This document shows positions 2,301 to 32,321 of a DNA stretch of 32,321 bases, piece after piece. The stretch is from a virus. Where the stretch lies: positions 1-32,321 of IMG/VR virus record IMGVR_UViG_3300032331_001188; one strand, 5' to 3'. The translations under genes and the position numbers were made by a program. The notes under the pieces are model-generated. The model was not told where the DNA came from. It ran no database searches and worked only from the letters and a program-made list of their open reading frames with translations. How positions within the stretch are numbered: position 1 is the stretch's first letter; each line of letters opens with the position of its first letter.

Positions 2301-4090
2301 GTTTTTTCGGTGGTTTCGGTTTTTTCTGGTGATGGTAAAAGCTGCAGTGCGAGAGCCACGGCGACCTGCATAGCCTCGCAGTCCCACATGTGGTTAGGCC
2401 CAGTCTTCGTCCAGCGCCACTCACTGCGGCCGGTGCTCTTGCTGATGCGCTCGCGCTTTACTTCGCCGCGCAGGTGGCGTGCGTACTCTTCCCCGTGATC
2501 AGCGCCGCATTCCCACGGATGCGAGTTGCCGGCGACCAGTGCCGCGAGCACATCCTTAACTGGATCCGACGCCCAGAACATGTAGCGCGCATATCCGCCC
2601 GGCACCTGCGTCTGCTTGATGCTGGAATGGAATTTCTGGATCTTCTGGCCGTTAGGCCGAATGTGCACGAACGAGTCGTCGCCGCTGCCGTGGAGCGCAG
2701 TCCAGCCGAACCTGATACAGTCCTCGTAAACGTGCGCGGTGCTAAACTGCGCGTCCTGGAAGCATAACTGCGACTCGACGCCGAAGTGCTGGCGGATGCC
2801 ATCGGCCTGCTCGGTCGTGCTGAGTTTGCCACGCCATAGCAGCTGCGAGCCGCCGTCGCTCTTCCAGGCTCGAACGACGGCCCAAAAATGATCGCGCTGG
2901 CGGTCGATCGTCATCATGCGGCGCGCCTCGTTCTCAAGCTTCTCGCGGCCACGGGCGTGCATGTCCGCGAGCGTGTAGGTTCCGCGGAGCTCGACCGTCG
3001 TGCGGTTCAGCTGCGCCTCTTCGTTACGCCACGGCAGTGCCAGCCGTTGCATGTAGAAATCGCGCAGCGGATTGATCTGGCCGCGCTTCTTGAACTCGCC
3101 GGCCTGCAGAAACTCGACCGCCAGCTGGCCCATGTCCTCGGCAAGAATCGCGTTCCAGTTAAACGATCGGTGCTTGCCGTCGCGATCGGTCCTCGGCGCA
3201 GAGTAGCGGCCGGTGCTGTTCCAGCGTGCCCTGGTGGCGGCGCTGTTGGCGTGATCATGCGCGCAGTGCGGACAGATCCACCTGGTGGAGTTGCGCACCA
3301 GCTGCTCGTCCCACATGCCGTTCTCCTTGCGGGCGCCCTCGTCCCACACGACGCAGACGCGCTTGGCTGGATCGTCGGCAGCGCGGCCAAAGAATTCGAG
3401 CGGAACGAATCGCTGGCAGCCGAAGCATTGCACCGACCAGATTTGCGCCGTGCCCTCGTGCCAGAGCCGGTCGAAGTCATCGTCGGCGTGCGATCCCTGG
3501 CTCTCGTTTAGGATCTTGCTGATGCCGTCGCGAGCATAGGCCGAGACGCGCCGACGTGCATGCGTCAGCAGTCCCTGCTTCCAAAGCCAGCACTCGCTGT
3601 TGAGCTTCCAGCGGATCGACTTGCTCTGTAGATTGTTCAGGTTGGCCCCGTTGATGATCAGGTAGAAATCACCAAAGTAGATCTCGCAGGTGGCCGCGTC
3701 GTGCTTGTTTTTCGGCAGTAGCCTGGCGACCGGCTCGCAGTTGCGCAGCAGATTGCGGTAACGGCCTTTCACATGCTCGGCGGCGCTCTCGTCGTCCTGC
3801 TGCGTCCACATGATCGGCCCGGGCTCATTTGCGATCGCCCAGAGGCTGCAGATCTCGACGAATAGCGTTTTGAGCGTCTGAATCGCGGCCCGGCATGTAA
3901 CCTCGCGCACGCGCTCGTCGGCGACGGCCTCGAACGGCTCGAGCAGATGCCGGCAGGTGCGAATGTCGAATGCGCCCTGGCGCGCGTAGCCTCCGCCCAG
4001 CTGCACGAAGTCGCGCGCCCAGTCGTGGATCGGCCGGCGATCTGGAAGCGCCCAGCCGCGACGCCAGCCCTGCAGGATCTCCAGGCTCAT
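2297..4090 (-). CDS. terL: Terminase large subunit (gpA family)
   Basis: The 597-aa motor and nuclease that cuts concatemers and pumps DNA into the prohead. Several gpA-family traits are visible: an N-terminal FDIRTCRHLLEP segment, a P-loop-position segment CRAAIQTLKTLF (about 66-77), two CxxC pairs (CFGC 222-225, CPHC 273-276) forming the zinc-ribbon-like insertion seen in this family, and a C-terminal NHMWDCEAMQVAVAL, the usual 'NH.WD.E' signature. The Walker A and the following Walker B region (RWKLNSECWLW) are clearly degenerate compared with textbook ATPases, as is common in gpA. Start ATG overlaps the small-subunit stop; stop overlaps the methyltransferase start. Confidence 0.9.
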   Translation of the reverse strand: MSLEILQGWRRGWALPDRRPIHDWARDFVQLGGGYARQGAFDIRTCRHLLEPFEAVADERVREVTCRAAIQTLKTLFVEICSLWAIANEPGPIMWTQQDDESAAEHVKGRYRNLLRNCEPVARLLPKNKHDAATCEIYFGDFYLIINGANLNNLQSKSIRWKLNSECWLWKQGLLTHARRRVSAYARDGISKILNESQGSHADDDFDRLWHEGTAQIWSVQCFGCQRFVPLEFFGRAADDPAKRVCVVWDEGARKENGMWDEQLVRNSTRWICPHCAHDHANSAATRARWNSTGRYSAPRTDRDGKHRSFNWNAILAEDMGQLAVEFLQAGEFKKRGQINPLRDFYMQRLALPWRNEEAQLNRTTVELRGTYTLADMHARGREKLENEARRMMTIDRQRDHFWAVVRAWKSDGGSQLLWRGKLSTTEQADGIRQHFGVESQLCFQDAQFSTAHVYEDCIRFGWTALHGSGDDSFVHIRPNGQKIQKFHSSIKQTQVPGGYARYMFWASDPVKDVLAALVAGNSHPWECGADHGEEYARHLRGEVKRERISKSTGRSEWRWTKTGPNHMWDCEAMQVAVALALQLLPSPEKTETTEKT

Positions 4091-5271: not shown

Positions 5272-6648
5272 CTACCTTGTCACCGGAAAAAACGTCGCGG
5301 TTGATCGCTTGAAATACAGGCCAACGGATCCAGTGCCATCGTTCCGCCCTTTAGCTTGTATTGCCGATATGTAGAACCGCGGTAGCTCGTCGGCGTCAGC
5401 CGTAGGACTTTGCGGCGCCGATGTCAGCGGATCTTCAGCTGGCCGGTGTAGCAGCACGATCTTGTCAGCGTCCTGCTCGATGTCGCCCGACTCGCGGAGG
5501 TCGTGAATCCGCGGCACGCGCTCGTCGCGCTCGGAATCGCGGTTCAACTGCGCGAGCACCATCACGACGCAGTCATTGCGCAACGCGAACTGCTTCAGCG
5601 CCCGCGAGACGCGCCCGACGCTTTGCGCCCTGTTCTCGCCGCGAGCAGGTGTAGCGTCAGGCATCAGCCCGATGTAATCGACTACAACGAGCCGCGGCGG
5701 CGTCTGCCGAGCACGCAAGACCTCGGCGCGTGCCTGCATGGTTGCCAGGCTGACATTGCCGGCGGCGACGACCTCGAGCGGAGCGGAGGAAATGCGCTGC
5801 GCTGCGTCGCGAACAGCCTGCACGTCTTTCGGGTGCGTTCTCGGAGTGATTGCTCGCAGCGAGATGCCGGCGATCGTTTGCGCGAAGTTAAGCGCCAGTG
5901 TGCTGCCGATGACCTCGAGCGAAGCGAACAGCACCTGCTGGTTTTGCTTTAGCGCGACATGCAACGCGATCTGCCTGGCGAGCGAAGACTTGCCGACACT
6001 CGGGCGCGCCGCGACGACGACCATTTCGCCGCGCTGGATCAGCCCGAAGATTCGGTCCATGTCTTGAAAGCCCCAGGACAGTGCGCCTTCGCGCATTCCG
6101 TCGCGCTCACCAGAGATGCGCGCCGTGATCTCGGCGTCTGCCTTCGTGAGCGATTCCGCCCAGGATTCGTTACGCTGCTGCGCCTCGATCGCTAAGATCC
6201 GGGCGCCGGCTTCGCGCACCAGATCCTCGGCCGGTTCAGATCCGGCTTCGCGGATGTTGGTCGTGATCGCGCCGGCCTCGCGCATCAGTTGGCGGAGGAT
6301 TTCGCAATGCCGCACCCGGGTAGCAAAGAACTTCGCCCGTGCTGTCGTCGCCGTGTTGCGCGCCATTGCGATGACGTTATCCTGCGTGACCTCGAGGATC
6401 GCCTGCGTCGCTTCGCGGTCGCCCTTGGCCGCCTTGAGCTTAACCCAGACCGTCGTTTCATCGACCGGATCGCCGGCCAGGAGCATCTTGCTGATGATGC
6501 CCCAGATGGACTGCGCGATCGGATCGACGAATGATTCCTCGCGCAACTCGAAGCCCATAGCCATGCCGACGACGCCGGCAGGATCAATGAAGGCGCAGCC
6601 CACCAGTGCGCGCTCGGCGTCCTGGTCGAATGTCGGATCTGGTTTCAT
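5272..6648 (-). CDS. dnaB: Replicative DNA helicase, DnaB family
   Basis: A 458-aa, full-length DnaB-type ring helicase that unwinds DNA ahead of the phage fork. The N-terminal domain begins DQDAERALVGCAFID (about 8-22), as in DnaB proteins. The RecA-like core shows Walker A ARPSVGKSS (214-222), the catalytic Glu region FASLEV (241-246), Walker B LVVVDYIGLM (320-329), LAQLNR (365-370) and DLRESGDIEQDAD (383-395). All key residues are present. It starts at the ATG overlapping the stop of the replication initiator-like gene, so the two are coupled, and probably takes the place of a helicase borrowed from the host. Confidence 0.95.
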   Translation of the reverse strand: MKPDPTFDQDAERALVGCAFIDPAGVVGMAMGFELREESFVDPIAQSIWGIISKMLLAGDPVDETTVWVKLKAAKGDREATQAILEVTQDNVIAMARNTATTARAKFFATRVRHCEILRQLMREAGAITTNIREAGSEPAEDLVREAGARILAIEAQQRNESWAESLTKADAEITARISGERDGMREGALSWGFQDMDRIFGLIQRGEMVVVAARPSVGKSSLARQIALHVALKQNQQVLFASLEVIGSTLALNFAQTIAGISLRAITPRTHPKDVQAVRDAAQRISSAPLEVVAAGNVSLATMQARAEVLRARQTPPRLVVVDYIGLMPDATPARGENRAQSVGRVSRALKQFALRNDCVVMVLAQLNRDSERDERVPRIHDLRESGDIEQDADKIVLLHRPAEDPLTSAPQSPTADADELPRFYISAIQAKGRNDGTGSVGLYFKRSTATFFPVTR

Positions 6649-7457
6649 GCGATTCCGAACTGGCGTTTCACATCTGGCAGATCGGCCAGGATGTCAGCCG
6701 GCTCCAAGGGCTCGGCCTTGGTCGCATTCTTGATCTGCTGGCGCGTCCAGTCGTCTGCCGGCGGAGCCACGCATGCGGCCCAGTGCTTCGCCAGAGCAGA
6801 CGCCGTAAGAGCAGCGCTCGGGAACTTGCGGCCATAACGATGGGCACGACGTTCGATCTCGGCCGGCGTTACCCCGGGCGAGGCTGCGCGGATGTCGCGA
6901 AGCGCTGCGTTGAGCGCTCCGCGGCCAGATTTCGTGAGGCTACGGGCGTCGGTTCCGGTGGCTGAACATAGAGCCTCAAAAATCAGATCTTTTGGCCTTT
7001 CTGCCGCGACGGCGTCAGCCGGCGCAATAGTGTTCCCTTCCCCTTCCCTTCCCTTCCCTTCCTTAAGGCACGCGTGATGCACGCGATCGTCACGCGTGGT
7101 CAACGCGTCAAGGTCTTGAGGCGAAGGCATTTGCGGTAATTCGCTCGCTCTCTCCTTGTTGTTTATGATCTGGTGCTTTTTCCATGTCGGAATGGCCCCA
7201 AACCAGGCGTCCCTTACGCGATACTTAACGAGAAATCCACGCGTGGTCAACGCGTCGAGCACGCGTGAAAAGTCGCATTCATCGTAAGGCAGAATTTGCG
7301 CTTTTAGCCTTCTAGGCTCCCAGCGGAATCGACCCTCTCGATCTGCGGCGCACCATAGGCCGACGAAGGCTATTCTGACGGGCAGTGCTGATTCCTTTTC
7401 TAAATCATGCAGACCATCGTGCATGAAAAATTCGGGCTTAATTGTTCTGATTCTCAT
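6645..7457 (-). CDS. Replication initiator-like protein (replisome organiser)
   Basis: A 270-aa protein whose N-terminus (MRIRTIKPEFF, then IAFVGLWCAADREGRFRW) is the typical opening of phage replication proteins that carry a winged-helix DNA-binding domain. A low-complexity linker (KEGKGREGEG, about residues 122-131) separates it from a C-terminal domain that could load DnaB, encoded by the next gene with an ATGA overlap. ATG at 7457 is chosen over the GTG at 7475 because the family begins MRIRTIKP. No ribosome-binding site precedes it; instead the bases just upstream are one arm of a terminator-like inverted repeat. The gene contains five CACGCG(T)-type repeats that may be the origin, as in lambda O. 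The function is inferred from family pattern and context. Confidence 0.75.
   Translation of the reverse strand: MRIRTIKPEFFMHDGLHDLEKESALPVRIAFVGLWCAADREGRFRWEPRRLKAQILPYDECDFSRVLDALTTRGFLVKYRVRDAWFGAIPTWKKHQIINNKERASELPQMPSPQDLDALTTRDDRVHHACLKEGKGREGEGNTIAPADAVAAERPKDLIFEALCSATGTDARSLTKSGRGALNAALRDIRAASPGVTPAEIERRAHRYGRKFPSAALTASALAKHWAACVAPPADDWTRQQIKNATKAEPLEPADILADLPDVKRQFGIA
7031..7062. repeat. GGGAA/TTCCC microsatellite inside the replication gene
   Basis: Five- and six-base units of TTCCC/TTCCCC run in tandem and encode the GK-GREGEG linker of the replication protein. A change of one unit would shift the frame, so the tract is a possible length-variable or slippage site. Confidence 0.8.
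7069..7267. repeat. CACGCGTG repeats, candidate replication origin
   Basis: The palindrome CACGCGTG occurs at 7069-7076, 7091-7098, 7238-7245 and 7260-7267, with CACGCGATCG at 7080-7089 and AACGCGTC at 7102-7109 and 7249-7256. A 19-base unit (CACGCGTGGTCAACGCGTC) is repeated exactly at 7091-7109 and 7238-7256, encoding the same DALTTR both times. Clustered iteron-like sites inside the initiator gene are known from lambda O and similar phages. That these bind the initiator is inference. Confidence 0.5.
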
Positions 7458-7466
7458 AATAAAAGA

Positions 7467-7534
7467 CCCCGGCACGCCTGCGGTGAAATTTGCCCTTTGC
7501 GCTACGCACGCAGAGCAGACGCAAGCGTCCGGGG
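7467..7534 (-). terminator. Inverted repeat with U-tract, terminator/attenuator-like
   Basis: Arms 7520-7534 and 7467-7482 pair (CCCCGG with CCGGGG, then CGC with GCG and GCG with CGC, small bulges). On the minus-strand RNA the second arm is followed directly by TCTTTTATT (7466-7458) and then the ATG at 7457, so transcripts from rusA could stop just before the replication gene. The loop is about 37 bases, long for a simple terminator, which favours a conditional, attenuator-like role. Confidence 0.5.
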
Positions 7535-7569
7535 AAATAAGTTGTTAGTCATTACCGGCGAATTTCACC
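7482..7569 (-). promoter_or_regulatory. Second inverted repeat, interleaved with the terminator-like one
   Basis: GGTGAAATTTGCC at 7482-7494 and GGCGAATTTCACC at 7557-7569 are inverted copies with one mismatch in 13. One arm lies outside and one inside the 7467-7534 hairpin, so in RNA the two pairings cross and can exclude each other, as an antiterminator and a terminator do. The outer arm includes GAGGTG, the likely ribosome-binding site of the 16-codon leader ORF. Confidence 0.45.
7502..7552 (-). CDS. Possible leader peptide (16 aa)
   Basis: ATG at 7552, stop TAG at 7504-7502; product MTNNLFPRTLASALRA. A GAGGTG about 12 bases upstream could serve as ribosome-binding site. It occupies the space between the outer arm of one inverted repeat and the inner arms of the other, as leader peptides do in attenuators. 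There is no run of a single amino acid that would name a signal. It could be chance; shown because of its position. Confidence 0.3.
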   Translation of the reverse strand: MTNNLFPRTLASALRA

Positions 7570-7605
7570 TCGCCGCGCTAAACCAGAAATTTGATCAGGC
7601 TTTCG

Positions 7606-8124
7606 TCAAGTTCCCCGACGAATCGTCACCAGCACTCCTCCGCCTTCGCCCGCCTTCGCCCATTCCTTGCCAATCGCGAGCATGTCCACCTGGGCGTCGT
7701 CGCCCCAGAAACGGCCGTTGCGCGTGATGCGGTCGAGCACCAGCTTGGCGAGGTTGTCTAGATCGGGCTTGCTCGTGTGCGGCCCGGGTGCGCTTTCCTT
7801 TACCATACCATTTGTGCGCAAGTGGGATTTCGGCCGCTGAAAGTAGAACTGCAGGATCACCGAGCACCGACCGGCGAACGGCTCGAGCGAATGCGTCCTG
7901 GCGATCTCCACCAGGTGCGCATCAACCGCCGCCTTCCAGACATCGGCCGCGTGACTGTCATACATGCGCGCCACGAATCGGGCGCCCATGCGTCGAGCGA
8001 AAGCCCGCGGCCTCGGCTGGCCTTTAGGATCTCCGCGGATGTAGAACCTTAGCTCCGCGGGTAATTCCGTGGATCGTGCGCCAGACGACGGAAGAGGTGG
8101 AATCGGTAGCTCGGGCGATTTCAT
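7606..8124 (-). CDS. rusA: RusA-type Holliday junction resolvase
   Basis: A 172-aa endonuclease that cuts four-way DNA junctions made during recombination and replication of phage DNA. RusA signatures are clear: GDPKGQPRPR (31-40), KPDLDNLAKLVLD (119-131), containing the paired acidic residues, and WGDDAQV (140-146). Usual family length is about 120-140; the extra residues are a Pro/Ser-rich N-terminus. The first ATG (8124) gives a 101-base overlap with the HTH gene upstream; no later ATG, GTG or TTG precedes the first conserved motif, so the overlap appears real. It works naturally with the RecE/RecT-like pair at 11-13 kb. Confidence 0.92.
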   Translation of the reverse strand: MKSPELPIPPLPSSGARSTELPAELRFYIRGDPKGQPRPRAFARRMGARFVARMYDSHAADVWKAAVDAHLVEIARTHSLEPFAGRCSVILQFYFQRPKSHLRTNGMVKESAPGPHTSKPDLDNLAKLVLDRITRNGRFWGDDAQVDMLAIGKEWAKAGEGGGVLVTIRRGT

Positions 8125-9253: not shown

Positions 9254-9819
9254 TGGTTGGCCTCCTTGAACGGATTCTCAATCAATGTCCGAAAATGGGC
9301 GGCCTGATGCGCCCGCGCAGCATCCCCCGCAGCAGCCCACGCAGCAGCCCACGCAGCAGCCCACGCAGCAGCCCCCGCAGCAACCCACGCAGCAGCCCCC
9401 GCAGCAGCCCCCGCAGCATCCCGCGCAGCAACCCGCGCAGCAACCCCCGCAGCATTCGCAGCATCCCCCGCAGCAACCTCCGCAGCAGCCAGCTCCTGAT
9501 CAGTAGCGTTGCCAGTCGCATACTTTTCGGCGACCACCAATGCGTTTTTGCTCCGGTCGTCGGTAAGCAAGTCGAAGACCTTCCGACCGTCAGCGAGCGG
9601 TGTATCTCGCACGCACCAGACCGCGAACAGTCGCAGGGTTTTATCGTCGGGAGTGCAGCCGGTTTTTTCCGCCATCCACAACAGCCAATCGACTCGCGGA
9701 CAATTATCCCAAACAGCAGCCATGTCGGGCTGCGTCAGAGCATACTTTCGACCGTGGGAGCACGCATTGGTCATGTCGCAAAACTGTTCAGGGGTTAAGT
9801 TGAGTAGTGTGTTGTTCAT
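9250..9819 (-). CDS. Ala-rich tetrapeptide-repeat protein (189 aa)
   Basis: Residues 1-105 are an ordinary folded-looking domain that begins NLTPEQFCDMTNACSHGRKY and contains WLLWMAEKTG. The rest, about 110-175, is a near-perfect run of [G/W/R]-[D/V/A]-A-A tetrapeptides, likely a long amphipathic or coiled helix, then a short tail ending NPFKEANQ. Similar Ala-rich repeat proteins are common in phage early regions but have no known job. A GGAGGC site precedes the ATG at 9819 (ATGA overlap). The repeat length probably varies between relatives by slippage. Confidence 0.8.
   Translation of the reverse strand: MNNTLLNLTPEQFCDMTNACSHGRKYALTQPDMAAVWDNCPRVDWLLWMAEKTGCTPDDKTLRLFAVWCVRDTPLADGRKVFDLLTDDRSKNALVVAEKYATGNATDQELAAAEVAAGDAANAAGVAARVAARDAAGAAAGAAAWVAAGAAAWAAAWAAAWAAAGDAARAHQAAHFRTLIENPFKEANQ
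9314..9496. repeat. 12-base tandem repeat encoding the Ala tetrapeptides
   Basis: About fifteen copies of a GCAGCAGCCC(A/C)C unit with small changes, all in frame with the 189-aa gene. Because the unit is a multiple of three, gain or loss of copies keeps the frame. Confidence 0.9.
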
Positions 9820-31128: not shown

Positions 31129-32321
31129 CTTTCGCGCTCAATCTCGAGCACCTTGCGCTCCGCCCAGGCATAGCCCGGATCGCCGCCCCAGAGCGCCCAC
31201 GCGATGCGGCCGGCGGACGGATAGCCCGGCTCGCCCGGGTTGAACCCCTCGCCCTGCTTGTCCACCTCGTGCCGGCGGAAAAACGACTTCATGCGAAAGA
31301 TCGTTTCCGTCGAAAGTGATCTGCCGTTGGAAATGTCGCGTGCACGGGCCACGCCGACTGCAGTGCCTCCGCGGTTAAACTCCTCGCGCCAGCGTAGCCC
31401 GCGGGCTGCCTCCTCGCGCATGGCGTCAGTCGGCTCGGTGTTCACCTGCAGCGCAGCCTGGGATAGCGCGGCGGCGTCGCTCGGGATCTGGACCGGCACC
31501 GGGATCGGCTCGTTAGCAGTCGGCGACAGATCGCCACGGAGCCCGGGCACCGGCAGCCCGGCATCCTCGAGCGCTTGGTTCTCAGCGGCGCGCCCGGCGA
31601 TGTGACTCTTGAGATCAATGCCACGCTCGGCGCAGATGTCGCTGAGATTGATGATGCCGGACAAGTAATCCTCGCGCTGGGCGGCGGCATCGCGGCCGAA
31701 ATCCACGGTCAGCCGTGGCGGCATCGTGAAGGACCATTTCCACCAGTCCGCATTCGCCGGCAGCCGGCCGTTCTTGATCGCCTTTGCGATCGCGTAACCC
31801 ACTGCGCGCCGGGCAAACGGCTTGAGCAGATCCTGCCGATCCTCGACGCTGCGCATGGCGGTCGAGATCACGAAGCGGGTGTTTGCCCCGCCGAGTGCGC
31901 TAATGTCCCAGGCGAGCTCGAACGGCCAGTTAATGCCGGCCATCGCGTTGCGCAGCAGCCGGTCCATGAACTTCTGCCAAGCATCGCCCGGGCGATCATT
32001 CTTGAACGCCTCGAGCTTTGAGCCGCTGCCAGCCTTGAAGTGTCGGACCATGCCGCCGAAAAACTCCTTGGCGGCGACATCTTGGCCGGAGAACTGAGCG
32101 CCGGAAAGCGCCACGGCTGGGTCGCTGGTGTCTGCCAGCCCGCTTTCGTTGTATTCGATCAGGCCGATGCTCGAGGCGAGTGCGGACGCCATCTTCTCGT
32201 AGCCCTGCACCGTGCGGAGATCCTTCAGGTCGAGAATCGCGTGCGCGAAGCCCGGGAGACCGCGGAACTGGTTAATCCACTGCGGCTCGGCCAGCAGCAT
32301 CATGTCGCGGGCGGTGACGTA
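31125..32321 (-). CDS. Phage portal protein, C-terminal part (gene cut by the contig join)
   Basis: The 398-aa C-terminal part of the portal, in frame across the circular join with the 1-759 part. GSGSKLEAFKNDRPGDAWQK and a later AWDISALGGANTRFVISTAM fit the lambda-type portal core, and WAERKVLEIERES closes it. The long low-complexity tail (about residues 240-330 of this part) is the usual variable end. Stop TGA at 31127-31125 overlaps the start of the protease-scaffold gene. Confidence 0.85.
   Translation of the reverse strand, partial: YVTARDMMLLAEPQWINQFRGLPGFAHAILDLKDLRTVQGYEKMASALASSIGLIEYNESGLADTSDPAVALSGAQFSGQDVAAKEFFGGMVRHFKAGSGSKLEAFKNDRPGDAWQKFMDRLLRNAMAGINWPFELAWDISALGGANTRFVISTAMRSVEDRQDLLKPFARRAVGYAIAKAIKNGRLPANADWWKWSFTMPPRLTVDFGRDAAAQREDYLSGIINLSDICAERGIDLKSHIAGRAAENQALEDAGLPVPGLRGDLSPTANEPIPVPVQIPSDAAALSQAALQVNTEPTDAMREEAARGLRWREEFNRGGTAVGVARARDISNGRSLSTETIFRMKSFFRRHEVDKQGEGFNPGEPGYPSAGRIAWALWGGDPGYAWAERKVLEIERES
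32199..32321. repeat. Direct terminal repeat, right copy (circular join)
   Basis: Exact second copy of bases 1-123. It ends in the middle of the portal gene, whose reading frame continues at base 123 of the left end. Confidence 0.95.

Follow-up and report, generated by a model that had tools for sequence, protein, structure and literature searches.

We uncovered a structured RNA element directly ahead of the replication-initiation gene of a 32,321-base virus record (IMGVR_UViG_3300032331_001188; this whole stretch is the window below), and sequence comparisons indicate that it is one member of a phage RNA family, not a one-off. The family architecture comprises a hairpin (P1), a pseudoknot between the P1 loop (strand a) and a downstream strand (a′), a long stem (P2), an inner hairpin (P3) and, in most members, a further crossing helix (b/b′) that pairs the linker after P1 with the P3 loop. 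In types I and III of the family P2 is followed by a U-tract; in type II it is followed, or overlapped, by a Shine–Dalgarno sequence (SD). On balance, these comparisons lead us to regard the element as probably a cis-acting leader switch of the replication operon, acting by attenuation combined with translational coupling.

The element and its flanking operon lie on the minus strand, where the genes run in the order RusA-like resolvase, element, replication-initiation gene and DnaB-like helicase (Table 1). The stop codon of the replication gene and the start codon of the helicase gene overlap as ATGA (6645–6648); hence, the coupling probably carries on down the operon. Within the replication gene, a polypurine/polypyrimidine TTCCC repeat (7033–7062) encodes a charged linker, which is paralleled by a similar charged linker at the related locus L023, and the repeat could be an origin feature. 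Elsewhere in the window, a 12-nt tandem repeat (GCCCCCGCAGCA, about 15 copies) lies within a coding frame at 9311–9490, and a weak match to our type II model (E 0.12), probably due to chance, is seen on the plus strand near the end of the record (32097–32194).

Table 1. Features of the window element and its flanking operon.
Feature	Position	Strand	Evidence
RusA-like Holliday junction resolvase, upstream gene	7606..8124	-	Pfam RusA E 3.8e-20
P1 hairpin GGCGA[GGTGAAAT]TCGCC, 5′-most part; holds SD-like GAGGTGA (7565-7571)	7557..7574	-	sequence, fold, relatives
Pseudoknot strand a = P1 loop GGTGAAAT	7562..7569	-	paired with a′ in 9/9 relatives; 3/8 pairs changed on both sides
Leader ORF, 16 codons + TAG, MTNNLFPRTLASALRA; starts in linker, stops in P3 region; peptide not conserved	7502..7552	-	sequence
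P2 5′ arm CCCCGGACGCTTGC	7521..7534	-	fold, relatives
P3 inner hairpin; outer stem TGCTCT (7517-7512) / AGGGCA (7496-7491)	7491..7517	-	2/6 pairs changed on both sides in relatives
Pseudoknot strand a′ ATTTCACC, between P3 and P2 3′ arm	7482..7489	-	unpaired in nested MFE fold
P2 3′ arm GCAGGCGTGCCGGGG; contains the replication gene's only SD-like sequence, GGGG (7467-7470)	7467..7481	-	fold, relatives
U-rich tract TCTTTTATT, immediately 3′ of P2, touching the ATG at 7457	7458..7466	-	sequence
Phage replication-initiation protein, 270 aa, start ATG 7457, downstream gene	6645..7457	-	PHROG 16167 E 8.5e-43
DnaB-like helicase, next after replication gene	5272..6648	-	Pfam DnaB_C E 2.1e-53

The first-pass annotation of this stretch, made from the sequence alone, had described two interleaved inverted repeats with crossing pairings, and both the sequence and the computed fold bear this out: the arms follow one another in the order a, P2-5′, a′, P2-3′. 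One is a 13-nt repeat (7482–7494/7557–7569; 92% complementary), and the other is P2 (7467–7481/7521–7534), a 14-bp stem with one bulged G that forms the main stem of the fold. The annotation was also right that the U-rich tail after P2 touches the replication ATG, that the other repeat covers the likely ribosome-binding site of the leader, with GAGGTGA (7565–7571) overlapping strand a (7562–7569), and that a 16-codon ORF runs from ATG to TAG (7552–7502). Its claim that the replication gene has no ribosome-binding site of its own needs a minor amendment: a weak SD-like GGGG (−6.6 kcal/mol) lies 9 nt upstream of the start, inside the P2 3′ arm; the GAGGTGA before the leader ATG has an anti-SD pairing energy of −11.8 kcal/mol. 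The nested fold of the 118-nt element, with the pseudoknot not counted, reaches −50.5 kcal/mol versus a shuffled mean of −36.6 (z −4.05), and none of 200 shuffles is as good. This fold leaves both a and a′ single-stranded, and since a′ is thus free inside P2, the a/a′ and P2 pairings need not exclude each other. The GC-rich P2 followed by the U-tract presents the layout of an intrinsic terminator before the replication gene; P2 escaped a terminator scan, its loop region exceeding the length that the scan accepts. A consensus scan of 7350–7750 revealed no sigma70-like promoter near the element on either strand.

Comparison with relatives carries the argument for the crossing pairing. Five contigs at about 97% (L002–L006) retain the element, and in one of these, L004, the crossing stem reads GGTAAGAT/ATCTTACC versus GGTGAAAT/ATTTCACC in the window, with two compensatory changes. 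It is likewise retained at more distant loci with other replication genes, as GGTGACAC/GTGTCACC at L023 and L136 and as GGTGAGAC/GTCTCACC at L024 and L133. The pattern used to search for the window-type loop fixed the a side only, and hence the complementarity of a′ was not built into the collection. In the nine-sequence alignment A5 the 32 pairs are 99.3% paired and six have changed on both sides, as against none or one when the partners are slid; three of these fall among the eight a/a′ pairs, one in P2 and two in P3. Thus, the absence of covariation that the annotation had named as grounds for giving up its proposal was looked for, and both stems instead proved to covary.

Further versions of the crossing stem at such distant loci with other replication genes are GTAGAAA/TTTCTAC (L007), GTGGAAA/TTTCCAC (L030) and GTGACAGG/CCTGTCAC (L031). 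A pattern combining the loop CGTRGAAA with AATTTCYAC 50–80 nt later matched 56 viral contigs, a figure that includes many near-identical copies and some non-members (e.g., the coding matches L255 and L276), and a slightly stricter form of it matched two genomes, both Verrucomicrobia MAGs. The reverse-order control pattern, although slightly looser, yielded 7 matches, none of them structured but L032/L308. In this last record (IMGVR_UViG_3300014208_000009), at about 2548–2720 on the minus strand of L308, a TTTCCAC is followed by a long stem enclosing a hairpin with a GTGGAAA loop, and the arrangement precedes a nuclease-like gene and a replication gene; we considered a permuted form of the family here, which this single sequence does not confirm. 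A loose scan for a hairpin with a 7-mer pseudoknot was too unspecific, and a stricter descriptor with a shuffled control was used instead: approximately 14 distinct members score above 28.9, the highest value among the shuffles, and the others, including the window clade, fall in the noise range, so that the evidence for the latter is their homology and covariation, not the scan.

In the alignment of 18 type I and III sequences (A2), 25 of the 35 pairs have changed on both sides, and the covariation is 0.462 versus 0.157 in shuffles; in that of 11 type II sequences (A3), 12 pairs, b/b′ included, have done so versus 4.7. The structures were derived from members of these same alignments, which favors them in the slide control. 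As the invariance of a/a′ in A2 and A3 stems in part from the search pattern, the evidence for this helix rests on A5, L031 and L312. The helix b/b′, which the first-pass annotation did not contain, shows a mean complementarity of 5.53 in type I versus 3.74 (sd 0.17) for shuffled linkers (0 of 2000 as high), and three of its pairs have changed on both sides in type II; no such helix was found in the window clade. Cells with G.U outnumber those with A.C by 18:1, 58:12 and 45:8, and this excess means that the structured molecule is the sense-strand RNA, not the DNA or the antisense strand.

A model built from type II alone finds type I and III members, and the reverse holds as well, both sets sharing the pattern with which they were collected. 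The type II model also uncovered a divergent member in the isolated Acinetobacter phage vB_AbaS_Silvergun (E 1.1e-4 in 3.3 kb, 0.0041 in 120 kb). Here both crossing helices have been replaced, the counterpart of a/a′ being GGCAA/TTGCC and that of b/b′ GGTAGGAG/CTCCTACC; these were read from the sequence, neither helix being part of the model. Among the known phages with homologous replication proteins that were checked with the model, only Silvergun has the element. The family is thus represented in contigs of unknown hosts, two Verrucomicrobia MAGs and an Acinetobacter phage. A search (R1) recovered few members in Verrucomicrobiota genomes (5 of 388); being blind to the window-type loop, it is uninformative as to the absence of that form from these genomes. 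Rfam 15 at gathering score gave only tRNA matches, and none over the element, in the window and 21 related loci, and relaxing it to E ≤ 10 added nothing meaningful over the element. No related element was recovered by blastn of the window and related elements against annotated phages, or of one type II element against plasmids, and the literature searched, the coverage of which was incomplete, contained no description of it.

Where the family of the downstream product could be recognized, it is a replication-initiation, primosomal or helicase protein, and several unrelated families are involved; genes without a family match follow the element at L253, L254, L044, L133, L283, L245, L048 and L292. 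Autoregulation by the Rep protein was considered and judged unlikely, as the RNA is retained across differing Rep families. At L265 (4861–5033, minus strand), an element nearly the same as that of L246 precedes a DEAD-box type helicase and not an initiator, which suggests module swapping at the element. A −10-like hexamer stands 6–7 nt before P1 in 10 of 12 cases (type II plus L283), at which spacing the type II transcript would start at P1. In the L283 member (IMGVR_UViG_3300022542_000219, about 3735–3834), P1 is preceded by a perfect TATAAT, the tail is terminator-like and the genes on either side resemble tail genes by eye; hence, the RNA may also occur away from replication genes. L245, situated after a tRNA, and L257 look like stand-alone RNAs with a terminator. 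The attenuator or RNA-switch logic proposed in the first-pass annotation is supported by the U-tract after P2 of types I and III and by the covering of the SD by P2 in type II; its 16-codon ORF turned out to be peculiar to the window clade.

Indeed, in the other type I relatives a frame of about 28–37 codons traverses the whole element to the replication start. Every type I element examined has an ATG in the linker, and in 15 of 16 elements outside the window clade the end of the frame opened by it falls at −4 to +20 relative to the replication start, mostly as an ATGA overlap; the exception, L270, has a leader frame running in frame into the gene. Three elements outside this count (L136, L116 and L151) were read by hand and fit as well. 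Unlike those of the relatives, the ORF of the window stops 44 nt before reaching the replication start. Openness of the leader is by itself weak evidence, since several members have a second open frame, and it could in part come from the general scarcity of stops in this GC-rich RNA; the ATG and the point where the frame ends are more telling. We rejected a conserved leader peptide, since the differences between close relatives are mostly amino-acid-changing and the relatives use different frames. Thus, it seems to be the position rather than the peptide that matters. As type II lacks a leader ORF, coupling cannot be what unites the family as a whole.

From these features, the leader switch that we favor might operate as follows. 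P1 would fold first and its loop would pair with a′ inside P2 to form the pseudoknot, while in most relatives b/b′ would add a second helix joining the linker to the P3 loop. P2 would then be the expression platform, which, with a U-tract, would terminate transcription just before the replication gene and, in other members, would hide the SD of that gene. Most likely, ribosomes starting the leader ORF in the linker hold P2 open. In most type I relatives they would stop at the replication start codon (ATGA), which would couple initiator synthesis to leader translation. For the window clade, the stop would be the TAG in P3, where the ribosome would cover part of P2. The pseudoknot would cover the leader SD in the window, or the start codon in most type I relatives, and the crossing helices may thus constitute the control point at which a signal could shut off leader translation. 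The sequence comparisons show the structure, the strand on which it forms, its position before replication genes and the geometry of the ORF; termination and coupling, as well as the direction of control and its signal, we infer.

The nearest precedents are the IncI, IncB and IncL/M plasmids, whose repZ/repA genes are under pseudoknot control according to the references given in PMC10724649 and are coupled to a leader peptide (PMC12365149, PMC10286972). In an equivalent positive control of the phage genes, translation of the leader ORF would open P2 and release a′ for pairing with the P1 loop, and the replication gene would then be translated because the pseudoknot itself activates it; we consider this unlikely, though likelier than the other alternatives. 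The repY-repZ (repB-repA) leaders of IncIα, IncB and IncL/M resemble our element in having the same parts in the same order: a 5′ hairpin loop, a short leader ORF, which in the plasmids ends close to or at the initiator start (here in 15 of 16 elements outside the window clade, the window ORF stopping 44 nt upstream of it) and a stem masking that start, to the 3′ side of which the loop is complementary; a/a′, the corresponding pairing here, covaries. However, P2 leaves a′ unpaired in our fold, and a/a′ could therefore form with P2 still closed. Moreover, the present element occurs in phages, before unrelated initiators (phage replication-initiation PHROGs), has a U-tract after P2 and lacks the ORF in type II. 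To our knowledge, its P3 and b/b′ have no counterpart in those plasmids. Given that we found neither an antisense promoter opposite the 5′ hairpin (consensus scan, 7350–7750) nor homology of the initiators nor any sequence relation (one type II element searched against plasmids), we regard the element as similar in logic to these plasmid leaders but not a member of them. It shares with trp-type attenuators the short ORF, the crossing pairings and the U-tract-terminated stem before the gene; unlike them, it has no run of codons for a sensed amino acid, conserves neither the peptide nor even its frame, and uses a pseudoknot, not an antiterminator hairpin. Ribozymes (HDV, pistol, hammerhead), compared by topology only, were not supported.

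Somewhat less probable than the plasmid-type control is that the double-pseudoknot core is a riboswitch or protein-binding leader that recognizes a metabolite, an ion or a host protein, with P2 as its platform (terminator in types I and III, SD masking in type II). A single core common to the types serves two kinds of expression platform, the type II transcript probably starts at P1, and the unrelated replication genes downstream speak against autoregulation by one Rep protein, all of which would suit such a sensor. The SAM-II and preQ1-II riboswitches and the Sinorhizobium meliloti metA leader are likewise compact pseudoknot leaders with a terminator or SD masking; they differ from our element, which lacks an Rfam match, has another topology and presents no conserved aptamer core. 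Few of its unpaired positions are invariant, and its crossing helices are replaceable (L031, L312, the window clade), unlike a typical aptamer core. The metA leader, whose SD is reported to act on a start 74 nt downstream (PMC9373788), also provides the precedent for an improbable alternative, in which the replication start would draw directly on the strong SD in P1, P2 bringing both into proximity. That the leader ATG has a strong SD and the replication gene only a weak one is as this would have it, yet many type I relatives (CGTAGAAA loops) lack a strong SD in P1 and type II has an SD of its own. Covariation cannot separate pairing within a molecule from pairing between molecules, and the stand-alone appearance of L245 and L257 might suggest that the element is a small RNA or that its loops pair with a second copy or with an antisense RNA. 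The c4 antisense RNA of phages P1 and P7 is of this kind, its hairpin loops being complementary to leader sequences in the vicinity. We consider this very improbable here: the order a, P2, P3, a′ is constant within one transcript, types I and II continue into the gene start, no antisense promoter was found in 7350–7750 and Rfam gave no match, c4 included; unlike in c4, the partners lie within the same element and the genes are replication initiators, not ant. That the pattern reflects a DNA-level structure (an origin or recombination site) or plain chance is hardly credible: the element does adjoin replication genes, but the excess of G.U over A.C is explained only by sense-strand RNA, the covariation exceeds that in shuffles and slides, and the reverse-order pattern is far rarer than the forward one, with structure only in L032/L308.

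Beyond the leader switch of this one operon, we tentatively propose a class of double-pseudoknot phage leader RNAs, common to phages with unrelated initiators, that may gate the start of replication on a general host or infection signal, with a terminator or SD masking as the output. Plasmids are well known to control the synthesis of their replication initiators by RNA, and here we find a candidate for such control before phage replication genes. The conservation of a structured leader alongside genes belonging to unrelated families suggests that the decision to replicate is governed by a regulatory device that is portable. The family comes with a testable model and has a member in an isolated phage, the Acinetobacter phage Silvergun.
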